Assembly: GCA_947479755.1 (NCBI GenBank)
Contig: CANKAM010000032.1
Span: forward strand, 1-40,880
Direction of reading: 5' to 3'
Length of the DNA: 40,880 bases
Source of the DNA: Bacteroidota bacterium
GTDB taxonomy: Bacteria > Bacteroidota > Bacteroidia > SXHM01
In this document: positions 2,561-15,667 of the stretch, in pieces
How positions within the stretch are numbered: the stretch's first letter is position 1
How the letters are laid out: every line of letters starts with the position of its first letter
Notes under the pieces: generated by a model
What the model was told of the DNA's origin: nothing
The model's input: the letters and a program-made list of their open reading frames with translations, nothing else
The model's database searches: none
Translations under genes and position numbers: made by a program

Positions 2561-3004
2561 ATGAAAAAGCAATTACTCCTCTTCCTTCTTGTAATCGCAT
2601 TTATTTTTTCCGTTTTTAATCCTGCAGTTATCGCGGACGAAATACCAACCCTCAATGGTAGTTGGAAGGTGACAAAAAACGAAGTAATCTCTAAAGAAGG
2701 AGAAGAAATCCCACGCACTATTTTCTCTGCTCAGGTTGAGAAAGATGTTCCACTTGAAATTAAAGATAATAGCACTGCTATGCTTTTCCGGCATGGGGAA
2801 GAATTTGAAATGCAAAATACGCGGTTTGAGTTTGAAGGTAGCATTGTAAGGGTTTATGTTGAAGGTGGCAAACCAAGCACAGGCGCTAAAGCAGAAGCGT
2901 ATACCGAATTTGAATATTCTATGGAAGGTAATACATTGGTTCTGAAAAAAGAAACGCCCAATTATTCAACGTTAATAGAACTTATCAAACAAACCCATGA
3001 TTAA
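2561..3004 (+). CDS. Secreted small protein, lipocalin-like
   Basis: A 147-aa protein that I cannot assign to a named family. Residues 1-25 form a signal peptide (MKKQ, a long hydrophobic run, then a cut near VIADE). The mature part opens with PTLNGSWKVTKNEV, the pattern seen at the start of lipocalin-like Bacteroidota proteins, then alternates short strands and charged turns (FEMQNTRFEFEGSIVRVYVEG, split at about 84-105; FEYSMEGNTLVLKKE). This suggests a small periplasmic beta-barrel. The ATG at 2561 is preferred over an in-frame TTG at 2534 because that TTG sits in a promoter element. The stop is 4 nt before the next gene's preferred ATG, so the two are probably one transcription unit. Function unknown. 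Confidence 0.75.
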   Translation: MKKQLLLFLLVIAFIFSVFNPAVIADEIPTLNGSWKVTKNEVISKEGEEIPRTIFSAQVEKDVPLEIKDNSTAMLFRHGEEFEMQNTRFEFEGSIVRVYVEGGKPSTGAKAEAYTEFEYSMEGNTLVLKKETPNYSTLIELIKQTHD

Positions 3005-3008
3005 TTTT

Positions 3009-6000
3009 ATGAAACTAAAAATAGGGCTGCTGTTTTTTTTGGTTTTTTACAGTTCTGTTGCTGTTGTTGGGCAGGCATTAAAGCTGGAAGTTCAAATCGT
3101 GAGAGCAGAAACAGATGGTTATGGTGATTGTTTTGCTTGCGGAAATGTGGATCCTGCCTGGAAAATTACAGGTTACCTGGGCGGTGTATTGCAGGGAACA
3201 AGTACAGTAACCTATGAAGAAATGCCGGGCAGCAGCTGGAATATTGGCTATAATGGCTGCAACGGTCCCGTTCCCTGTTATATTGTAAACAGCAACTCTA
3301 CCACACAAACCAATTTTGTGTTGGGGCTTGATGCCTGGGAAAACGATTGCGACCCGATGGACCAATACAATTCTTCCTGTAACCTTGGCTTTAATGGTGA
3401 TAATAAAAGGTGTACAAATGCAAGTCTCAATACTATTGCCTTTCGCACAGCAGGAGCATTCTGCATTGCTTCCAACAGCAGCGGCTGGACAGAAGCCTGG
3501 AGCACCTGGTGCGGTCATTTCAGGGTAAGATATGCTTACCGCTGGAGCTTTGCAGAAGCTCCCACTATCACCACACAGCCTGTTGCAAACACCTCGCTTT
3601 GCATTGGAGCTACAACCAATTTATCAGTTGCAGTAAACAGTGAAGCTACATCAGGAGTTACCTTAGGTCAATTTTATAAATGGCAGATATCAAATAACAC
3701 AGCTTGTAATGGAAGCAACTGGCTGGATATTACAGGTGCTAATTCATCTACTTACACTCCTAACCAGATTGCAGGTACACGCTTATACCGGTGTTTAATT
3801 ACTTCCAACTGCACTGCAGATTTCACTTCCAATACAACTACCAGTAATTGTGCACGGGTAAGCTATAACCCCATGAATTCCACTACTACTGCTCCAGGTG
3901 GTTTTCCCTATGGTACCGGTGACGGACCGCCTGCCATACAAGGAGCTTGCGGGCAAACAGTTCTTCCAGGTTCGGTAAACACAGTCACTATTCTATTTCC
4001 ACCGGCTGTAGGTGCATCCGCCAATATCACCACTTATGCCTGGACTACCAGTGGCGGTTCATTCTCATCGCCAACCGGTACTTCTACTAACTGGACAGCT
4101 CCAGGCACACCCGGAACTTATAATGTTATTTTAGAATACCAGGATGGTTGCCCTGCTGCAAACCAGTTTGCGCCAACCTGTGTTATTACCGTAGGAGCCC
4201 CTAATTGCGGAGCCACCTATGTTGCCACTACGGGCTCAAATGTTATTGCCTGTGGTGGTCCTAATAATCCCTGCGCTACCATTAGCTATGCTTTAACTCA
4301 AATGGGTTCCAACACTCACATTAAAGTTGCTAACGGAAATTATTCAGAAACTTCAATTGTAAACCTTGTTTCTTCTGTAATTATTGAAGGTGGATTTAAC
4401 ATAAGCAGCGGCATCTGGTCAAAAAGTTCTAACTCAACCACCAATATTACTTGTAGCGGAACCGGCAGCAGTGGTAATGATATTGCCCATGTAATGGGTT
4501 TTAGTTCAAATGGTACTAATAATTGGAAACTAATAGATTTAAATATTACAACAGGAGCTGCGTCAGGAACCTCTGTAAGCGGAAGAGGCAAATCAAATTA
4601 TGCCCTGCACTTAAATAATTCATCAGGTTATAAGGTACAACGATGCGCTATAACTGCAGGAGCAGCAAGTAATGGCACTGCCGGAGGAACCGGGGGAACA
4701 GGTCATACCGGTTCTGCAGGTAATGCAGGGGCCTCAACCGGCTCATGTAATAACGAGAGTTCTTATGCCGGAGGTACAGGGGGCTCAGCAAACACTAATA
4801 CATGGGGTGGTAATGGAGGTAATGGGGGCACTGGAGGGACTGCAAGTTCAAAGGGTACAAATGCGAATGGCGGTGGAGGAGCTGCTGGTGCAAATTCAGG
4901 TGGCGCTGGTGGTGGTGCAACAAACAATATTCATCAGCTTGGTTGTTGTGGTGGCGGAACAAGGGATGGTGCTAATGGCAATGGAGGTACAGCCGGTTCT
5001 GGAAATTCGTTAGATTGGGTTGCAGGAAATTTAGAACCGGCAAATCAAACCTACGGGCAATTTGTTACTCCCGGAGTTGGTTCTAATGGTGGCATTGGAA
5101 GAGGTGGTGGTGGCGGTGGTGGTGGCGCTTCCAGCACAGGTGAGCGATATTGTTGCTGTTGTTATTATAATGATAATACAGGCAATGGAGGTGGTGGTGG
5201 TGGACAAGGAGGAGGTGGTGGACAAGGTGGATTTGGTGGAAATCAGGGCGGTTTTAGTTATGGTGTTTATGTAAATGGTGGTACACTTGGAACATTTACT
5301 AATTTTACACTTGCAGGTGGAACAGTTGCTACAGGCGGTGCAGGTGGAGCAGGTGGAGGAGGTGGAGGAGGTGGAGGAGGTGGAAATGGACCAAGTGATT
5401 GCTCGGGAGATAGGGGTAATGCCGGTGATGGTGCTACAGGTGGAACAGGTTCAGCAGGTGGCAGAGGGCGAGATGCCGCAAATGGCTTATCAGGATCTCA
5501 ATACATTGTAGGAACCGGAGTATCAAACCCAAGTACATCAATACCCAATAGCCCCATCGTAGGCATCAACTACAACAACTCTAAACTGTGCAGAAATTCT
5601 GTGATAGATATTACTAAAAACTCAGGTACCTGGGCAGCATTCGCCAGTTTCGGAACTGCTTTTGCATTTGTAAACGATTTAACCGCTGGAACAACATCTT
5701 ATACAACTGCCAGCAGCCCGGCTAAAATTTATACCACTACAGCAAGTCAGTTTGGTAATCTTGCAACCACTACCCCCGTAACCTGGCCCGATTACCTGAA
5801 TATTTTAAGTGACGCACGTACAGTTCCTTCTCTTACAGCTACAGCAGCTACCATTTGTATAGGAGGGTCAAGTGTGTTATCTGCCACTACATGGGGAACT
5901 GAACAACAATATGACTGGAAAATTTTCCCCGTAAATCAGGTGAATGCTACTGCCGGAACAGAAGTATGGAGTTCTGCGGTGGCAAGCCCAACTGCTTCGG

Positions 6001-8096: not shown

Positions 8097-11000
8097 ATGA
8101 TTTCGCACTGGTCTAAAATAATTGTTCTTGTATTGCTATCGTGCAGCAATGTTTTAGCCCAGCAATGGTATCTGTCACCGGTCTATCACGGTAGAAGTAT
8201 GTATTCAGTTGCGATACTTGACCGCACACATGTGATTGTAGGAGGAGGCAATGAATCAAATGATTCACTCCAAGATATTGTTCGTTCCACTGAAGGAGGA
8301 ATGCAATGGCTCTTTTCAAGCAATCAGGGAGGTGGTTATATCCGTTCCATGGCTTTTAATGATACCCTCAATGGAATGGCCGTTGGCTATGCAGGTAAAA
8401 TTCTGAAGACTGTAAACGGAGCAGAATCATGGGATCAGGTTTATGCTCCTTATCCCAACAGTGCACGGAATTTTAACAAGGTACTTTACCTCGATAATCA
8501 AAACCTTATTGCCTTTGGAGGCAGAAATTATGGCAACGACACCATACAAACTATTATAAAAAGTACAGATGGTGGTGATACCTGGAACACCATACGCGAT
8601 ATAGACGGCAGATGGCTAAAAGGCGCTTTTTTTATTAATCCAACAACAGGGTTTGCTGTGGGCGGTGCCGGTACTATTATAAAAACAACCGATGGAGGCA
8701 GCAACTGGACAACCGTAAATTCGCCTGTAAGCAACCGCGAATTAAATGCAGTTTATTTTATTAACGCAACAACAGGGTATATAGTAGGCGGAAATTTTGT
8801 TGAGTTTGATACCCTTTCCAGTATGCGCACCATTTTAAAAACCACCGATGGTGGAGCAACCTGGAATATAATAATGGATGAAGCAGGGGGATGGTTAACG
8901 GCATTGGATTTTCTTGATCAGAACAACGGGTATCTTACCGGTGATGGTGCACAGCTTTATAAAACCACAAACGGAGGCAGCAACTGGATACGCCAAACTA
9001 TACCGGGCAGTCAGTGGTATTCTGATTTTACCTCTGTGAAATTTTTAAATGAAAATTTCGGGGTTGTTACCGGCAGGTTTGGTGAAGTTTTTCTCTATTC
9101 AAATGAAGCTCTTCCTGAAGTTGTAACACTGCCTGCTACAGTCACAGCAGAAACAGATACCAATGCTACCGTTACCCTGCGTGCTGATATAAATACGCAG
9201 GGCCTGCCAATGAACTATAATTTCAAGTATTCAACTACTCCCGATTTTTCCAGCAATGTTGGCTATGCATTTATAGTTATTTATCCTACTTATTTCAACA
9301 GTAATTCGTTTTCAATTGTTGAAGCTTCAGTCAATAATTTTTTACCCCAAACTACCTATTATTATTTTGTAACCGGTACAAGTGCAAGTGGTACTGTTAA
9401 TGGTGATACCCTTAGTTTTTTTACCAATCTGCCGTTTACAGAGTTTAATACATTTTCGCCCAATTTATATTTGCCCGATTCAGTTGTTTTAAGAGGGCAG
9501 GTTAATGGTTTTACTTCACCTGTTACGCTTTCATTTGAATATGGAACCAGTCCGTTTTTTGGCAATGAAATTCAGGCAAACCCTGCAACGGTAAGTGACA
9601 ACTTACAGCACTCGGTTTCTGCTGCGCTTCAAAATCTTCCTGATGGGTATTATTATTACAGGCTGAAAGGGATTTACTCCAATGCCACTGTTTACGGAGA
9701 CACTTCTAACTTTCTTATTGGTCCTGCTTTTCAAACATTAGAAACAATGCCGGCCTCAACTGTTGATTTAAACAGTGGAACCCTGAATGGTTTTTTGTCA
9801 GGGTTTGTTTTGCCCGCTACCATCAGTTTTGAATATGGAAATACGCCTTCTCTTGGCTCTGAGTTGCCTGCTGTTCCTTCAGCAATAAATGATAATCAAG
9901 CTTACAGTGTTTCATTAAATTTATCGGGATTGCAAGCTACTGTGCCGGTTTATTACAGGGTGAAAGCCTCCACATCACTGGGTGTTTTTTTTGGTGAAAT
10001 CATGAATTTTGTACCCGGTTTTCAAGACCTGGTTTTCGAAACACAATTTGCTACCCGGGTAACAGCAACATCTGCAAGGGTTAATGCATACCTTGAAAAT
10101 CTGGGGATACCGGCAAATCTGTATTTCGAATATGGCACAACACCTGCTTTGGGTAGTTTTATTCCGGCTAACTTGTCCTCCGTAAATGATACACTTTTTC
10201 ATCAGGTGTATGCAGATTTAACAGGCCTGCAGTCCAATGCAATTTATTATTACCGGCTTAAAGCAGAATTTGACGGCACCTATAATTTAATCAGCCCCAT
10301 ACGTCAGGTTTTTACTGCCGAACCCGAAATACCTAACTGGGATTTTCAAAACTGGGAAACAACTACTTCCACAACACCTTTAACCTGGAATTTGCCAACC
10401 CCAAATTTTGAACAGGTGCCCGGTGTAGAGGGCAATGCCCTTAAGATTTTTGGTAAAAATGTTGCCCTGCTCGGATTGATAGCCGGTGCCGATAATAATG
10501 GTCTGGTTTTCTATGACGGATGTCCTGTAAATTACCGCCCCGATTCATTGGTAATGTATCTTAATTACGACATAGCCCCGCAAGATTCAGCAATCTTTAT
10601 TCTTCGTTTTTCAAATAATGGAGTTACCGTTTCCGATAACTTTTTCTTTATCAACGGAAGCTCAGCAGGTAATTATAATCGTTTTGCTTTTCCTATAACC
10701 TATCATAATCAGTTGGTGCCCGATACCTTTGGAATGGTGTTTGCGCCCTGGATATTTTTTAACAACATCCCCTCACCGCAGAGCCCCGATGCCTTTATTA
10801 GCATAGATAATATGGAGTTTTCTCCTTCTTCGAGTGCCATCTGCAATGGAGATTTTGAAGATTGGTTCACCTTTGACCACTTTGATTTGCAGGATTGGTC
10901 GTATCCAAAACATGCTGCAATTGATACTTCAGATATTACACTATCGCGCATTGTTCAGCAATCTGTATTTGAGCAACCCGGTGATTATGCTGCAAAAATC

Positions 11001-11675
11001 CGAAACATTGCAACCGCCAACAACAGATGGCTTACGGGTAACATCACAGCGCTTAAAGACAACTTTACACATAATGTTACCGGTCCTTCGTTTGCGGTAA
11101 GTAAGCGCTTCAAATATTTTAACGGATATTATAAATACGAACCACAAAATAATGACACAGCATTTTTTCACATTTCATTATTCAAAAATGGTCAACAGGT
11201 GGGCGATGGCCAATTTCGCCCTTCGCAAACCATGACTGACTATATGCCCTTGGATATAGAACTGAATTATATTAATGACACGATTATTCCCGATAGTGCC
11301 GATATTATTATTGTTAATTCCTATGAACCCCCGCCCGGTGGCTCGGTAATGTATGTTGATAAACTCAGCTTTGACGGTTTCTGGGGTAGCAACGGAGGCA
11401 TTATTCAAAGCGTGTCTGCAATACAGCAGCAAGCGGTTAAAGTGTATCCCAACCCGGCAAAAAACAATGTTACGGTTGAATTGCCGGCTGCAGCTTTAGA
11501 ACCCGCTTTTTTATTGCTGAGTGATATTAACGGACGAGCACTAACCCAAGCATTGCTGCCCGCAGGACAAACGCGCTGGAGCCTGGATGTTTCAGCTATT
11601 GATGCCGGACTTTATTTCTTAAAAATTCTGGCAGACAACAAAATCTCTAACTCTAAAATAGTAGTGGTAAAATAA
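8097..11675 (+). CDS. T9SS type A-sorted Ycf48-like propeller / FN3-like repeat surface protein
   Basis: 1192 aa with a signal peptide (MISHWSKIIVLVLLSC...AQ, about 1-22). Residues 22-345 form a Ycf48/BNR-type beta-propeller with recurring Asp-box motifs (STDGGDTWNT, TTDGGSNWTT, TTDGGATWNI, TTNGGSNWIR) and TGYIVGG/GFAVGG strands. Four FN3-like repeats follow (about 350-745), most marked by FEYGTxP..G and YYYRLK. Next come two jelly-roll-like domains that begin NWDFQNWE (about 748) and NGDFEDWF (about 917), and a C-terminal T9SS type A sorting domain (KVYPNPAKN near 1115, DINGR, DAGLYFLKI, ending KIVVVK). In this family the tail directs outer-membrane export and is normally removed. Paralogue of the 27619 product, which has one more FN3-like repeat. 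Ligand unknown. Confidence 0.9.
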   Translation: MISHWSKIIVLVLLSCSNVLAQQWYLSPVYHGRSMYSVAILDRTHVIVGGGNESNDSLQDIVRSTEGGMQWLFSSNQGGGYIRSMAFNDTLNGMAVGYAGKILKTVNGAESWDQVYAPYPNSARNFNKVLYLDNQNLIAFGGRNYGNDTIQTIIKSTDGGDTWNTIRDIDGRWLKGAFFINPTTGFAVGGAGTIIKTTDGGSNWTTVNSPVSNRELNAVYFINATTGYIVGGNFVEFDTLSSMRTILKTTDGGATWNIIMDEAGGWLTALDFLDQNNGYLTGDGAQLYKTTNGGSNWIRQTIPGSQWYSDFTSVKFLNENFGVVTGRFGEVFLYSNEALPEVVTLPATVTAETDTNATVTLRADINTQGLPMNYNFKYSTTPDFSSNVGYAFIVIYPTYFNSNSFSIVEASVNNFLPQTTYYYFVTGTSASGTVNGDTLSFFTNLPFTEFNTFSPNLYLPDSVVLRGQVNGFTSPVTLSFEYGTSPFFGNEIQANPATVSDNLQHSVSAALQNLPDGYYYYRLKGIYSNATVYGDTSNFLIGPAFQTLETMPASTVDLNSGTLNGFLSGFVLPATISFEYGNTPSLGSELPAVPSAINDNQAYSVSLNLSGLQATVPVYYRVKASTSLGVFFGEIMNFVPGFQDLVFETQFATRVTATSARVNAYLENLGIPANLYFEYGTTPALGSFIPANLSSVNDTLFHQVYADLTGLQSNAIYYYRLKAEFDGTYNLISPIRQVFTAEPEIPNWDFQNWETTTSTTPLTWNLPTPNFEQVPGVEGNALKIFGKNVALLGLIAGADNNGLVFYDGCPVNYRPDSLVMYLNYDIAPQDSAIFILRFSNNGVTVSDNFFFINGSSAGNYNRFAFPITYHNQLVPDTFGMVFAPWIFFNNIPSPQSPDAFISIDNMEFSPSSSAICNGDFEDWFTFDHFDLQDWSYPKHAAIDTSDITLSRIVQQSVFEQPGDYAAKIRNIATANNRWLTGNITALKDNFTHNVTGPSFAVSKRFKYFNGYYKYEPQNNDTAFFHISLFKNGQQVGDGQFRPSQTMTDYMPLDIELNYINDTIIPDSADIIIVNSYEPPPGGSVMYVDKLSFDGFWGSNGGIIQSVSAIQQQAVKVYPNPAKNNVTVELPAAALEPAFLLLSDINGRALTQALLPAGQTRWSLDVSAIDAGLYFLKILADNKISNSKIVVVK

Positions 11676-11677
11676 TA

Positions 11678-11707
11678 ACTAAAGCCCCCGTATTCAGAGG
11701 CTTTAGT
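11678..11707. terminator. Bidirectional terminator between convergent genes
   Basis: ACTAAAGCC (11678-11686) pairs perfectly with GGCTTTAGT (11699-11707) across a 12-nt loop, two bases after the 8097 gene stop. T-rich tracts lie on both outer sides. It sits between convergent genes (8097 plus, 11730 minus) and can serve both. Confidence 0.75.
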
Positions 11708-11729
11708 TTATTGAAGTATAGAAAACACT

Positions 11730-12482
11730 TTACCAGATAACCATCACGCTAACCGCAGCGCTCCACGGTCCTGATTTCTGACTTTCTTTTGAGTTTTTCC
11801 AGCGACACTCTATGGTAAACTCTTTGCCGGCATCGCCTTGTGCCAGTTGCAGAATAAACCGTGCTTTTCCTGTTTCGCCTAAAACCTGTTGGGCTGCTGC
11901 CGGGGTGCCGGGCATTGGCGGTGTAGGCGGGGCAGGCATACCCGGGTCGGGTATAGTTACAGGTGCAACCACCTTATAGCGGTATTCAATCACATCGCAG
12001 CTTATATGTTTGCTGGGGCGGTTGCTGTCTGCTATTACGCGGCATTCAATCTGCACCCGTCTGCCTTCCTTTGCCCGCAGCAATACCGAGGGTGAGGTAT
12101 CAATCACCGGCCGGCTGCTGGGGCTGCGGTCGCGCTCTTTTAGATTAAACGTTATGCGCTCATCAGCAGTTAGTGCGTTGCTGCCCGAAATACGGTTAAG
12201 CAGCGGCTCGGCAAATGCTATGAAATTTGTTTTAAGCGTATTTTTCTGATTAATAATACTCTGGGTGCGCTGCGCCTTGTCGGTGTATTTAGGATACACC
12301 ACTACCCATTGGTCTCGGAAACTTAACCATTGTGCAAACTCGGCAGCGGTAAGTAATAAACGCTGCCAGGCAGGTATTGGAGGTGGTGGGTTAGGAGGCA
12401 GCGGACCTTCCAGTGCTGTGGTGGTGTTGCGCAGATACTGATCAAATGCGCTGTCTTTTTTGTTAATTCTGTTTCCTGACAT
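11730..12482 (-). CDS. Conserved Bacteroidota-type hypothetical protein
   Basis: 250 aa starting MSGNRINKKDS; no signal peptide or membrane segment. After a proline linker (PNPPPPIPAW, 31-39) there is a probably helical domain (about 38-115) with regularly spaced W, Y and K (FAQWLSFRDQWVVVYPKY, LKTNFIAFAEPLLNRI) ending in ADERITFNLKERD. I recall this layout from unnamed Bacteroidota proteins. The second half (about 128-250) looks like two beta-rich pieces (LRAKEGRRVQIECRV and ARFILQLAQG..FTIECRWKN) separated by a Pro/Ala/Gly linker. The reading frame stays open upstream through the 21-bp tandem array to a TTG at 12986, but that period keeps several frames open. The ATG at 12482, behind an A-rich leader, is preferred. 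Function unknown. Confidence 0.7.
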   Translation of the reverse strand: MSGNRINKKDSAFDQYLRNTTTALEGPLPPNPPPPIPAWQRLLLTAAEFAQWLSFRDQWVVVYPKYTDKAQRTQSIINQKNTLKTNFIAFAEPLLNRISGSNALTADERITFNLKERDRSPSSRPVIDTSPSVLLRAKEGRRVQIECRVIADSNRPSKHISCDVIEYRYKVVAPVTIPDPGMPAPPTPPMPGTPAAAQQVLGETGKARFILQLAQGDAGKEFTIECRWKNSKESQKSGPWSAAVSVMVIW

Positions 12483-12542
12483 TTTTTTGTTTTTTAGGAT
12501 TAATAATTCGTTAGTATCATTTCTTTGAATAGTATATGCTTT

Positions 12543-12920
12543 GGTGATGGTGTTGCGCTCCGTGGTGATAGCATCACACTCTGTGGTGATAACATCAGGC
12601 ACTGTGGTGATAAAATCACGCTCTGTGGTGATAACATCAGGCACTTTGGTGATAGCATCGCACTCTGTGGTGATAACATCAAGCTCTGTGGTGATAACAT
12701 CAGGCACTTTGGTGATAACATCACGCATTGTGGTGATAACATCACACTCTGTGGCGATAACATCAGACACTGTGGTGATAACACCACACTCTGTGGTGAT
12801 AACATCAGGCACTTTGGTGATAACATCGCACACTATGGTGATAACATCACACTCTGTGGTGATAACATCACACTCTGTGGTGATAACATCACGCTCTGTG
12901 GTGATAACATCACGCACTGT
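12543..12920. repeat. 18-copy 21-bp tandem array with internal dyads
   Basis: Eighteen gap-free 21-bp units of the form GGTGATAACATCAnnnnnTGT, with a partial nineteenth at 12921-12928. Most units contain the dyad GTGAT-AAC-ATCAC. Variation is concentrated in unit positions 13-20; types ending CACTCTGT or CGCTCTGT alternate in part with GGCACTGT/GGCACTTT, hinting at a 42-bp higher-order unit. Unit 1 is the most degenerate. The array lies between the minus-strand HTH gene (13055-13309) and the minus-strand gene at 11730-12482, whose ATG is 60 nt from it. It is not CRISPR: there are no unique spacers. Confidence 0.9.
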
Positions 12921-13054
12921 GGTGATAAAGCATTTACATTCAAAGAACGATGCCGCAATAGTACTCCACCCCTGAGCGCTTGTCAAGGCAACGTTTAACG
13001 GGCTACATATAGCCTTCCCTTGCAGCTAAAGGGTTTCAGGGGTGTAAAAAATTT
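12921..13054. other. Gene-free stretch between the array and the HTH gene
   Basis: No convincing gene. It holds two inverted repeats: CACCCCTGA (12967-12975) with TCAGGGGTG (13036-13044) enclosing 60 nt, and a small hairpin GGCTA-CATA-TAGCC at 13001-13014. The outer pair could mark a structured transcript end for the HTH gene; no U-run supports a classic terminator. Confidence 0.45.
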
Positions 13055-13309
13055 TTACTCCAGCGGTTTTCCGTTGTAGTTCCCCTGTTTATCAAACCCG
13101 TTTTCACGGGCTTTTAAAATCAGCTGCAGGAAGTTGCCGGTTTCTGTTTTCAGATACAGGATGGTCAGCTGATGCCCCAGCGTGTTGACGCTGATTCCAA
13201 GATTGTCAGCTATCACTTTGCGGGTGTGCAGTTGCACCAAATGTGAGATGATTTTCATCTCGCGCAGGGTTAGTTCAACACCTGCAAATTCATGGTAATT
13301 TGTTTTCAT
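13055..13309 (-). CDS. LuxR/GerE-type HTH-only DNA-binding protein
   Basis: 84 aa consisting almost wholly of a GerE-like helix-turn-helix: LTLREMKIISHLVQLHTRKVIADNLGISVNTLGHQ split at about residues 13-47, matching the family pattern LTxRExxIL...IAxxLgiSxxTVxxH, then an LKTETGNFLQLILKARENGFD recognition-end helix. There is no receiver or sensor domain, so any signal must come from expression level or a partner. The ATG at 13309 is preferred over an in-frame start at 13351, because the extra 14 residues overlap the -7 element at 13337-13344. It is transcribed toward the tandem array and the 11730-12482 gene, so both are plausible targets. The HTH identity is firm; the role is inferred. Confidence 0.8.
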   Translation of the reverse strand: MKTNYHEFAGVELTLREMKIISHLVQLHTRKVIADNLGISVNTLGHQLTILYLKTETGNFLQLILKARENGFDKQGNYNGKPLE

Positions 13310-13336
13310 AGATGATAGATTTAAAAGTTTATTAAA

Positions 13337-13344
13337 CAAACATA
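13337..13344 (-). promoter_or_regulatory. -7 promoter element for the HTH gene
   Basis: On the minus strand this reads TATGTTTG, matching TAnnTTTG, 27 nt before the ATG at 13309. No TTG is seen at the expected -33 distance, so it is a partial match. Confidence 0.5.
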
Positions 13345-13383
13345 CAACCACCCCGGCAGAGAGTGTTTACCATCTTTTTCCGG

Positions 13384-13413
13384 AAATTAGCAAGTCCAAC
13401 GCACCTTTTTTTT
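13384..13413. repeat. 30-bp direct repeat, copy 1
   Basis: Matches 13451-13480 at 27 of 30 positions (core AAGTCCAA-GCACCTTTT). The copies are 67 bp apart in the divergent intergenic region between the HTH gene and the S74 protein gene, so they could be paired operator sites. Confidence 0.7.
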
Positions 13414-13450
13414 GCTGTTTTCCTTTATTTATGGGTATTACAGAGCTAAA

Positions 13451-13480
13451 AAATTAGGAAGTCCAAAGCACCTTTTATTT
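13451..13480. repeat. 30-bp direct repeat, copy 2
   Basis: Partner of the repeat at 13384-13413, with substitutions at three positions only. A separate 20-bp sequence at 13517-13536 also occurs exactly at 2474-2493. The whole stretch 13310-13627 otherwise holds no gene I can support. Confidence 0.7.
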
Positions 13481-13516
13481 TAGTTATGCCAGTTGATGCT
13501 TTGCCTCAATTAGGTA

Positions 13517-13536
13517 TTGGAAACTTAATTATTTGA
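13517..13536 (+). repeat. 20-bp exact repeat shared with 2474-2493
   Basis: TTGGAAACTTAA-TTATTTGA is identical at both sites. One lies upstream of the 2561 gene (first of its unit), the other upstream of the 13628 gene (first of its unit), which suggests a shared regulatory site. Neither fits the -33/-7 consensus well by itself. Confidence 0.5.
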
Positions 13537-13627
13537 AAAAATAGGCTCAAAAAAAATGAACAAATTGACTTTTTTACTTTTTTTTATCTACAGAATACTT
13601 AATATTACTCCGTTAAATACTACCACT

Positions 13628-15667
13628 ATGAAAAAATTACTACTCCTTTTGCTTGCTGCAGCAGCGTTTTCAGGTGCTCAGGCACAAACCGGAATAAGCG
13701 CAGCAGGCACCGCACCCGATGCAGCCGCCATGATGGATGTGATAGCAACCGACAAGGGATTCATGGTTCCCCGTGTTGCCCTTACAGCATTGAATGCCGC
13801 AGGTCCGGTAACAGGATTATCAGCAACCTCTACCTCCTTGCTGGTTTACAACACTGCATCTGCAGGCATAGTGCCCAACGATGTAACACCCGGTTTCTAT
13901 TACTGGAATAACGCCACCACATCATGGATACGGATATTATCAGGTGCTGCAAACTTAACTGCCGGTAATGACATTGATTTCGGAACCTCTGCTGCAAACA
14001 GTATAGACGTAGAACCTATTTTAAATTTTGTACACACTATAAGCGCACCGGCAGCAAACAATCTTAACCTAAATGCAGCTTCAGGAAATGCTATAATTGT
14101 CAATTTCAATAATGGAACTACAGGTGCCACCCAAACTTTTAGAATTGGTGACGGAGCAGGTGGTGCTGATGTATTTAATGTTGCAGCAAACGGAAATTTT
14201 TATGCAGCTAACAATGGTCAGGTAGTTGGTAATTTAAATTTAACGGGAACAACAAAAACCCTTTTTGTAGCCGGTATCAGAGGTGGTAATACATTTAACA
14301 CCGTTGCACCAACCATAGCAAATTCAAATATTATGTATGCAGATAATGCCAGCGGTGCTGTATATTCGTTACCTGCAGCCGCAGCCGTTTCAACATTGAC
14401 TTCCAATGCAACGGGGCAGCTTTCATGGGCATCATCAACCGGAACAGGAATACAGGGCTATTGGACCCGCACCTTGACAAACCTCTATAACACCAATCTG
14501 AGTGATAATGTGGGTATCGGTTCAACTGCCCCAGCCAGCACCCTGAAGATAGAAGGTAGTTTAGCACCAAAATATGTGAGCACTGCTGCTAATCCTTATA
14601 ATGTTGCACAAACAGATTATTATGTTAATTATAATACATCGGGTGGCGTAGTAAACTTACCTAACTCTGGAACAGGTATACCTGGAAGACTTTTGAACAT
14701 TAAAAACACCACTTCAGGAACGGTTACGGTAAACGCAGTTGGAGGTGAACTTATTGACGGATCCGCTTCTTATATTTTGAATGCGAATAACAGTTTACAG
14801 TTGATCAACAACGGAACTGCTACCGGTGCAGTTACTACCTGGAACGTAATGGAAGTAAGTTTAACAGGTGGTTTGCTGGCAAGCGGTTTTGCAGCACCTG
14901 CTGCCAACTCAGTAACCATTTCAGCACCTACAGCCGGTTCAGCCACTACAGCCATACGTTCAGATGCTACTTTGCAACTTTCACAAGCCATTGTGCCTAC
15001 CTGGACCGGAACTCATACTTTTTCCAATGCTGCTGCAATCCGTTCGTCTAACGGAACTGTAGCACTTCCTGCCATTGCCTTTACTGCAAGCACAGGCACC
15101 GGTTTGTCAAGCCCCGCTGTCAATGTGCTTGCATTCTCTACTGCAGGTGCCGAGCGTGCCCGTATTGATGCCACAGGAAATTTTGGTATTGGTGTTACTC
15201 CAAGCGGAACATACAAACTACAGGTTAGTGGTAAACTTCTTACTTCGGGTATTGACGAAAACTCAGATGTGCGCCTTAAACAAAACATCAACCCTATTTA
15301 CGATGCCTTAAGCAAAGTAACCCAAATGCGCGGAGTTACCTACAACTGGCGCACCGAAGAATTTCCGGAACGCAACTTTGAAAAAGACATGCAATTTGGT
15401 TTAATAGCACAGGAACTGGAAAAGGTAATACCTGAACTGGTAACTACCGATGGCGATGGCTACAAAGCCATTGAGTACAGCCACTTAGTGCCGGTATTAA
15501 TTGAAGCTATTAAAGAACTGAAAACCGAAAACAACATCTTAAAAACCGAAAACAGTACTACAAATTCTAAATTGTCAATTGTCAATCAACAATTATCAAT
15601 TTTAAATACCCGTATGAGTGCGTTGGAAAATAATGTGGAGGTTAAAACCAATAAAGCAGAGAAATAA
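13628..15667 (+). CDS. Secreted tail-fibre-like protein with C-terminal peptidase S74 (intramolecular chaperone) domain
   Basis: 679 aa. Signal peptide MKKLLLLLLAAAAFSGAQAQ (1-20). An N-terminal segment common to Bacteroidota secreted proteins follows (DKGFMVPRVALTALNAA, FYYWNNATTSWIRI), then a long low-complexity repeat-rich shaft. The S74/endosialidase-type chaperone domain starts at ENSDVRLKQNI (Ser546, Lys551) and includes YNWRTEEFPE, FGLIAQELEKVIPELV and YSHLVPVLIEAIKEL. In that family the domain trimerises, assists folding of the shaft and cleaves itself at the conserved Ser. A C-terminal coiled coil (about 635-679) contains a repeat-derived stretch. The start at 13628 gives a clean signal peptide; an in-frame ATG at 13556 adds 24 residues. 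It is followed 37 nt later by the 15705 gene. Confidence 0.88.
   Translation: MKKLLLLLLAAAAFSGAQAQTGISAAGTAPDAAAMMDVIATDKGFMVPRVALTALNAAGPVTGLSATSTSLLVYNTASAGIVPNDVTPGFYYWNNATTSWIRILSGAANLTAGNDIDFGTSAANSIDVEPILNFVHTISAPAANNLNLNAASGNAIIVNFNNGTTGATQTFRIGDGAGGADVFNVAANGNFYAANNGQVVGNLNLTGTTKTLFVAGIRGGNTFNTVAPTIANSNIMYADNASGAVYSLPAAAAVSTLTSNATGQLSWASSTGTGIQGYWTRTLTNLYNTNLSDNVGIGSTAPASTLKIEGSLAPKYVSTAANPYNVAQTDYYVNYNTSGGVVNLPNSGTGIPGRLLNIKNTTSGTVTVNAVGGELIDGSASYILNANNSLQLINNGTATGAVTTWNVMEVSLTGGLLASGFAAPAANSVTISAPTAGSATTAIRSDATLQLSQAIVPTWTGTHTFSNAAAIRSSNGTVALPAIAFTASTGTGLSSPAVNVLAFSTAGAERARIDATGNFGIGVTPSGTYKLQVSGKLLTSGIDENSDVRLKQNINPIYDALSKVTQMRGVTYNWRTEEFPERNFEKDMQFGLIAQELEKVIPELVTTDGDGYKAIEYSHLVPVLIEAIKELKTENNILKTENSTTNSKLSIVNQQLSILNTRMSALENNVEVKTNKAEK
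15569..15602. repeat. Inverted repeat inside the coiled-coil tail of the S74 gene
   Basis: AAATTGTCAATTGT (15569-15582) and ACAATTATCAATTT (15589-15602) are complementary at 12 of 14 positions around a 6-nt loop. It is translated as KLSIVNQQLSIL, a peptide I recall from AT-rich palindromic repeats in Bacteroidota genomes. It suggests a repeat captured within a coding region. Confidence 0.5.

Follow-up and report, generated by a model that had tools for sequence, protein, structure and literature searches.

A 21-bp tandem array between a small HTH gene and a 250-aa gene

The stretch of DNA analysed here (40,880 nt, referred to as the window in the rest of the text) contains a tandem array of 21-bp units between two genes of the minus strand. 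Along that strand the order is HTH gene, a conserved segment (TTGAC, 18 bp, TACTATTG), CGTTCTTTGA, array and 250-aa gene, and the features are as follows.

11730..12482, minus strand: gene for a 250-aa protein (family P250) with N-terminal helices and a C-terminal beta (Ig/Fn3-like) region; the array's downstream gene
12521..12542 (plus strand) and 12927-12947: arms of an imperfect inverted repeat on either side of the array, read from the sequence, the latter arm overlapping the boxA-like signal
12542..12930, minus strand: 21-bp tandem array, sense unit CAGAGYGTGATGTTATCACCA, core dyad TGAT-GTT-ATCA (TRF, units, lags and column counts)
12940..12949, minus strand: boxA-like antitermination signal CGTTCTTTGA at the gene-strand 5′ end of the array, sharing a 9-mer with rRNA leaders of the genus
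12956..12963, minus strand: candidate −7 element TACTATTG, one mismatch to TAnnTTTG, compared with G001, G003, other modules and rRNA leaders
12982..12986, minus strand: candidate −33 element TTGAC, 18 bp from the −7 element
13001..13014, no strand assigned: dyad GGCTA-CATA-TAGCC directly upstream of the candidate promoter, a candidate operator of the HTH protein judging from sequence
13055..13309, minus strand: gene for an 84-aa GerE/LuxR-type HTH-only protein (Pfam GerE, E 6e-4; homologs found)

By direct reading, the array consists of 18 gap-free units at 12542-12919 followed by a partial unit at 12920-12930. TRF returned a period of 21 with 17.8 copies, 84% matches and no indels (12556-12928, score 501), and self-identity was 0.83 at lag 21 compared to 0.14 at lags 20 and 22, confirming the 18 gap-free units described in an earlier, sequence-only reading of the locus; the period does equal two helical turns, as stated there. 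The same reading had placed a GTGAT/ATCAC dyad in most units and the variation outside it. The exact GTGATAACATCAC occurs in 6 units and most of the remaining ones are one base off, but the full arms are found in only part of the units. According to column counts in the sense orientation, units vary mainly at positions 4, 6, 7 and 8. Of these, position 7 forms the outer end of one arm, the well-kept arms being TGAT/ATCA. Taken alone, the dyad of the window array is borderline beyond chance (P = 0.046, column-permutation test). The bracketing inverted repeat is also present in G001 and was not seen in G003; as RNA, the ends of the leader could pair through it.

The 84-aa protein scores 19.8 bits against Pfam GerE, under the cut-off of 23.5 bits, and its earlier label of LuxR-type HTH holds in the sense of a GerE/LuxR-like protein that falls below the family threshold. 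The reality of the 250-aa gene, also claimed from sequence alone, is supported by an ortholog that is 98% identical. P250, our own label for the family of its product, matched none of the curated families of Pfam, NCBIfam or PHROGs and lacks a convincing solved relative, and a weak AF2 model (pLDDT 55) suggests helices at the N-terminus and strands at the C-terminus. No P250 homologs were found in phage, plasmid or viral collections, viral contigs included, and we therefore dropped a phage, viral or plasmid origin. The product of the divergent gene at 13556-15667 has a Peptidase_S74 (tail-fibre chaperone) domain, and a gene of similar appearance adjoins the G003 module L150.

The layout recurs across Bacteroidia

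The same layout, in which a small gene for a DNA-binding domain of the GerE, LytTR or Xre type is followed by a 21-bp array and by a gene whose helical product ends in an Ig/Fn3-like region, recurs across the class Bacteroidia, bearing out the view of the array as a conserved kind of element that usually lies near a small DNA-binding-domain gene. P250 is present in 22 of the 395 Bacteroidia genomes searched. Of the loci from that search, 20 were inspected, mostly from other genera, and the strongest upstream lag was 21, 42 or 63 in 19 of these 20, the repeat lying at the far edge of the stretch examined in 2 of the 19. Paralogs and orthologs of P250 carry their own arrays just upstream, with different unit sequences and a period of 21, 42 or 63. 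The P250 loci without a clear array are L116 and L131-L135, and where these were read a coding gene occupies the array's place. At L131-L135 the genes are P250-like, several lie behind a LytTR gene, and the gene in the array's place codes for a helical protein; L131 also contains a gene resembling REP-type (RAYT) transposases (2577-3245). Genes for XerC/D-like tyrosine recombinases stand beside two modules (L051 5137-6201 and L130 199-1293).

Arrays of the 21-bp type also lie upstream of 20 of the 22 members of a second family, P232, which likewise ends in an Fn3-like region, compared to lags of 21 or 42 at 4 of 172 control genes taken from 280 kb of the same genome. No convincing relation was detected between P232 and P250 (hhalign probability 43%). 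A third type of downstream gene, P403, whose product contains a CarboxypepD_reg domain, likewise comes after an HTH gene and an array. Roughly two thirds of the P250 modules have a small GerE, LytTR or Xre gene, from three unrelated families, as a neighbour, and several modules have no small DNA-binding-domain gene in the flank examined. A few 21/42-bp arrays were found outside the module, at G000:C4, C8 and C10.

The period is constant while the sequence varies

Across the arrays, lag 21, 42 or 63 dominates and lags 20 and 22 remain at background, whereas the consensus units of nearly all pairs from different modules match at shuffle level, L049 and L058 keeping 15 of 21 positions. Dyads occur more often than chance predicts: P was below 0.05 for 14 of 36 independent arrays (Fisher 1.6e-10), and a second set of 26 arrays contributed 6 (Fisher 1.1e-6). 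Many arrays show no significant dyad, and the strongly diverged array of L122 has kept AATnnATT in 21-bp phase. The best reading of these patterns is that selection keeps the 21-bp spacing of small dyads rather than their sequence. Intergenic short repeats with a period of 7 or 14 bp are common in these genomes (L042, L044, L047, L055 and L063) and are distinct from the 21-bp arrays.

Folded as RNA, the sense strand had no advantage over the antisense strand, which was lower in 26 of the 36 arrays. This favours a dyad acting at the DNA level over RNA hairpins, although base composition may contribute, and an array of RNA hairpins was rejected on this ground. Rfam covariance models gave no match up to E = 1 within 11000-14000.

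Unit number differs between the arrays of G000 and G001 (17.8 and 13.7 copies). Such fast turnover is what would be expected of a non-functional minisatellite, generated by slippage with a preferred 21-bp step within a tolerant long untranslated leader whose boxA (see below) would serve gene expression only, and the arrays outside the module as well as the 42- and 63-bp higher-order repeats would fit the same explanation. However, arrays are near-universal before two protein families in different genera and rare before other genes, their period is exact, and the array of L122 keeps its dyad in phase despite its divergence. We consider a non-functional origin unlikely.

Most arrays are non-coding

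Since 21 bp correspond to seven codons, an array could code for heptad repeats, either as a small protein of its own or as an N-terminal extension of the downstream protein. In the window, a 418-aa frame (11730-12986) is indeed open through the array into the 250-aa gene, and ATG-started heptad frames in L059 and L066 made the idea attractive. However, many arrays carry stops in all three sense frames (15/6/6 in L055, 37/16/12 in G000:C6 and 7/9/7 in G001:C2), synonymous changes are not in consistent excess in any one frame, and the open frame of the gene in G003 does not extend through its array. Because of these stops, and because most short units would have open frames by chance (a given frame is open about 70% of the time in a random 7-codon unit), the 418-aa frame is no evidence of coding. 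The arrays are mostly not coding, heptad coding was rejected as a general explanation, and we regard it as highly improbable. A separate 21/42-bp repeat that is coding (MATAETQMATIS...) was found at L074 7954-8549 (G000:C7), in a gene that follows a sigma-factor-like gene.

A candidate promoter and a boxA-like signal precede the array

The 9-mer GTTCTTTGA occurs on the gene strand within 700 bp upstream in 15 of 40 modules of the genus, that is, in fewer than half of them, compared to 0 of 40 in the antisense orientation and 0 of 168 control genes (Fisher P = 1.6e-11, computed assuming one control match). Within the modules its place is the distal end of the array. Members of the genus also have this 9-mer approximately 140 bp before the 16S rRNA gene and in the 16S-23S spacer, and for this reason it looks like the rRNA boxA of the genus; the comparison used genomes of the same genus, as the assembly containing the window yielded no 16S gene of its own. 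A sense-strand match to the rRNA boxA of same-genus genomes is found ahead of an untranslated region. At the arrays of most other genera no boxA was found. An array at L128 1139-1618 (G000:C25) is led by boxA and has a spacing averaging about 21.6 bp (22/43/65/108), the one clear departure from the strict 21.

Just before boxA, several arrays have a promoter-like TAnnTTTG, which we take to be the promoter consensus of Bacteroidota, and the rRNA leaders show the same arrangement. The candidate −33 element TTGAC of the window is kept in G003, and G001 has TTGGAC at that place. With this promoter, the boxA of the window would start almost at the predicted transcript start, which counts against reading the array as an antiterminated leader.

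The strict 21-bp period combined with free sequence, together with RNA folding that gives the sense strand no advantage, could also be explained if the array were a sequence-tolerant DNA scaffold on which a protein encoded elsewhere polymerises at sites two helical turns apart, and Subirana and Messeguer have speculated in the same direction for constant-size satellites (PMC8161180). Such a scaffold leaves unexplained why boxA and a promoter are found at the array and why arrays hold a fixed place before two protein families; to us it seems improbable.

The array and the adjacent regulator change independently

The sequence-only reading had proposed that the neighbouring 84-aa protein binds the array, which would serve as a cooperative operator or nucleoprotein array. 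Extended to the other loci, each module would have its own cognate dyad, recognised by the neighbouring DNA-binding-domain protein, and the presence of a small GerE, LytTR or Xre gene next to roughly two thirds of the arrays, the enrichment of dyads and a period of two helical turns would all suit this proposal. However, G000 and G001 have a 250-aa protein that is 98% identical and an identical array consensus (21/21), whereas their HTH proteins are only 58% identical. Conversely, the HTH proteins of G001 and G003 are 82% identical and share the same putative recognition helix, NTLGHQITILFIKT, whereas their arrays match at 12 of 21 positions, which is shuffle level. Site sequence did not follow the regulator in either comparison, and since array and HTH change independently, it is improbable that the array is read by its adjacent regulator.

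Two further points weigh against the operator proposal. A second array in G000:C4 (L072 3834-3961) has nearly the unit of the window and lies between convergent gene ends with no HTH gene nearby, an occurrence that the sequence-only reading had itself named as contrary to its proposal, and the modules without a DNA-binding-domain gene in the flank examined lack an adjacent protein of this kind. Binding of the array by its neighbour appears unlikely. The LytTR pair L049/L058, whose proteins are 88% and 90% identical, was dropped as evidence of decoupling, as 15 of the 21 consensus positions match.

The HTH gene lies within a block (12963-13440) that has diverged between G000 and G001; identity to G001 is about 67-85% over the block and mostly above 90% in its flanks, the pattern that a recombination event replacing the regulator would leave. 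For the dyad at 13001-13014, G001 and G003 share one variant that differs from that of G000, as do their HTH proteins. This correspondence among three sequences suggests that the dyad may be a better candidate operator for the HTH protein than the array.

A possible untranslated leader

The best explanation in our view, to which we give about an even chance, is that the array is a boxA-antiterminated untranslated leader made of tandem dyads. In the window this leader would belong to the 250-aa gene, and the locus would be one instance of a chromosomal module that recurs, consisting of a small DNA-binding-domain regulator, a promoter with boxA, an array of period 21 and a helical protein ending in an Ig/Fn3-like region. 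Judging from the elements that precede it, the array is probably transcribed; the transcript would begin just upstream of it on the minus strand, and boxA would recruit the Nus complex, so that RNA polymerase could escape Rho termination over about 400 nt of untranslated repeat and reach the protein gene. The HTH protein would more likely control the promoter, through the candidate dyad at 13001-13014, than the array. The dyads may serve as evenly spaced sites in DNA or RNA, and slippage or unequal exchange would make the array units turn over rapidly. Counting against this explanation are the genus modules and the other genera in which boxA was not found, the arrays outside the module, the five P250 loci L131-L135 with no array, the many arrays without a significant dyad and, as regards selected RNA hairpins, the folding of the sense strand.

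We put forward more tentatively, as a possibility short of an even chance, that these loci form a hitherto unrecognised class of chromosomal module in Bacteroidia. Selection would act on the exact 21-bp spacing of the dyads, and not on sequence, in a boxA-antiterminated untranslated array that works together with the downstream Ig/Fn3-ended protein. If true, this would give constant-length bacterial satellites their first functional context.

Comparison with known systems

Dyad sites near a LuxR-type HTH gene recall GerE/LuxR-type operators. The window array differs from these in having 18 tandem sites and a site sequence that is independent of the recognition helix of the regulator.

Long untranslated RNAs led by boxA are known, among them CRISPR arrays, for which the addition of a boxA increased the yield of transcript (PMC7862264). 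The likeness lies in a boxA placed before a long untranslated transcript, with a presumed block of Rho as related in PMC7862264, which cites Stringer et al. 2020. Unlike boxA-led CRISPR and rRNA transcripts, the arrays described here lack spacers and cas genes, are built of 21-nt units and are followed by a protein gene. A CRISPR array was rejected for the window, given its gap-free 21-bp units without spacers and the absence of a cas-like gene among the neighbours read.

The closest likeness is to tandem repeats of 20-21 nt reported from many bacterial groups, which have constant size and variable sequence, are mostly non-coding and have no known function (Subirana and Messeguer 2021, PMC8161180); that their length equals two helical turns was pointed out in the same study. 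The same authors found satellites of 52 nt in Bacillus coagulans to be transcribed (PMC8625621). The earlier statement that no element of this form had been described was too strong in view of the published satellites. As in those, length is here constant at 20-21 nt, sequence is conserved neither between species nor between arrays of the same genome (nearly all pairs), and many arrays are non-coding. The array type is known, and its surroundings, namely the gene context, boxA and the link to protein families that make up the module, were not found described in the open-licence literature. The satellites of PMC8161180 were described genome-wide, mainly in Bacillus and without gene context, whereas the present arrays belong to the class Bacteroidia, contain dyads in part and are tied to a promoter, boxA, DNA-binding-domain genes and particular protein families. 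Bacterial satellites of constant length and free sequence have been puzzling. The fixed gene context, likely promoter and rRNA-type antitermination signal that accompany them here make their transcription, their partners and the need for a 21-bp period directly testable, and two uncharacterised protein families, P250 and P232, gain a common genetic context.
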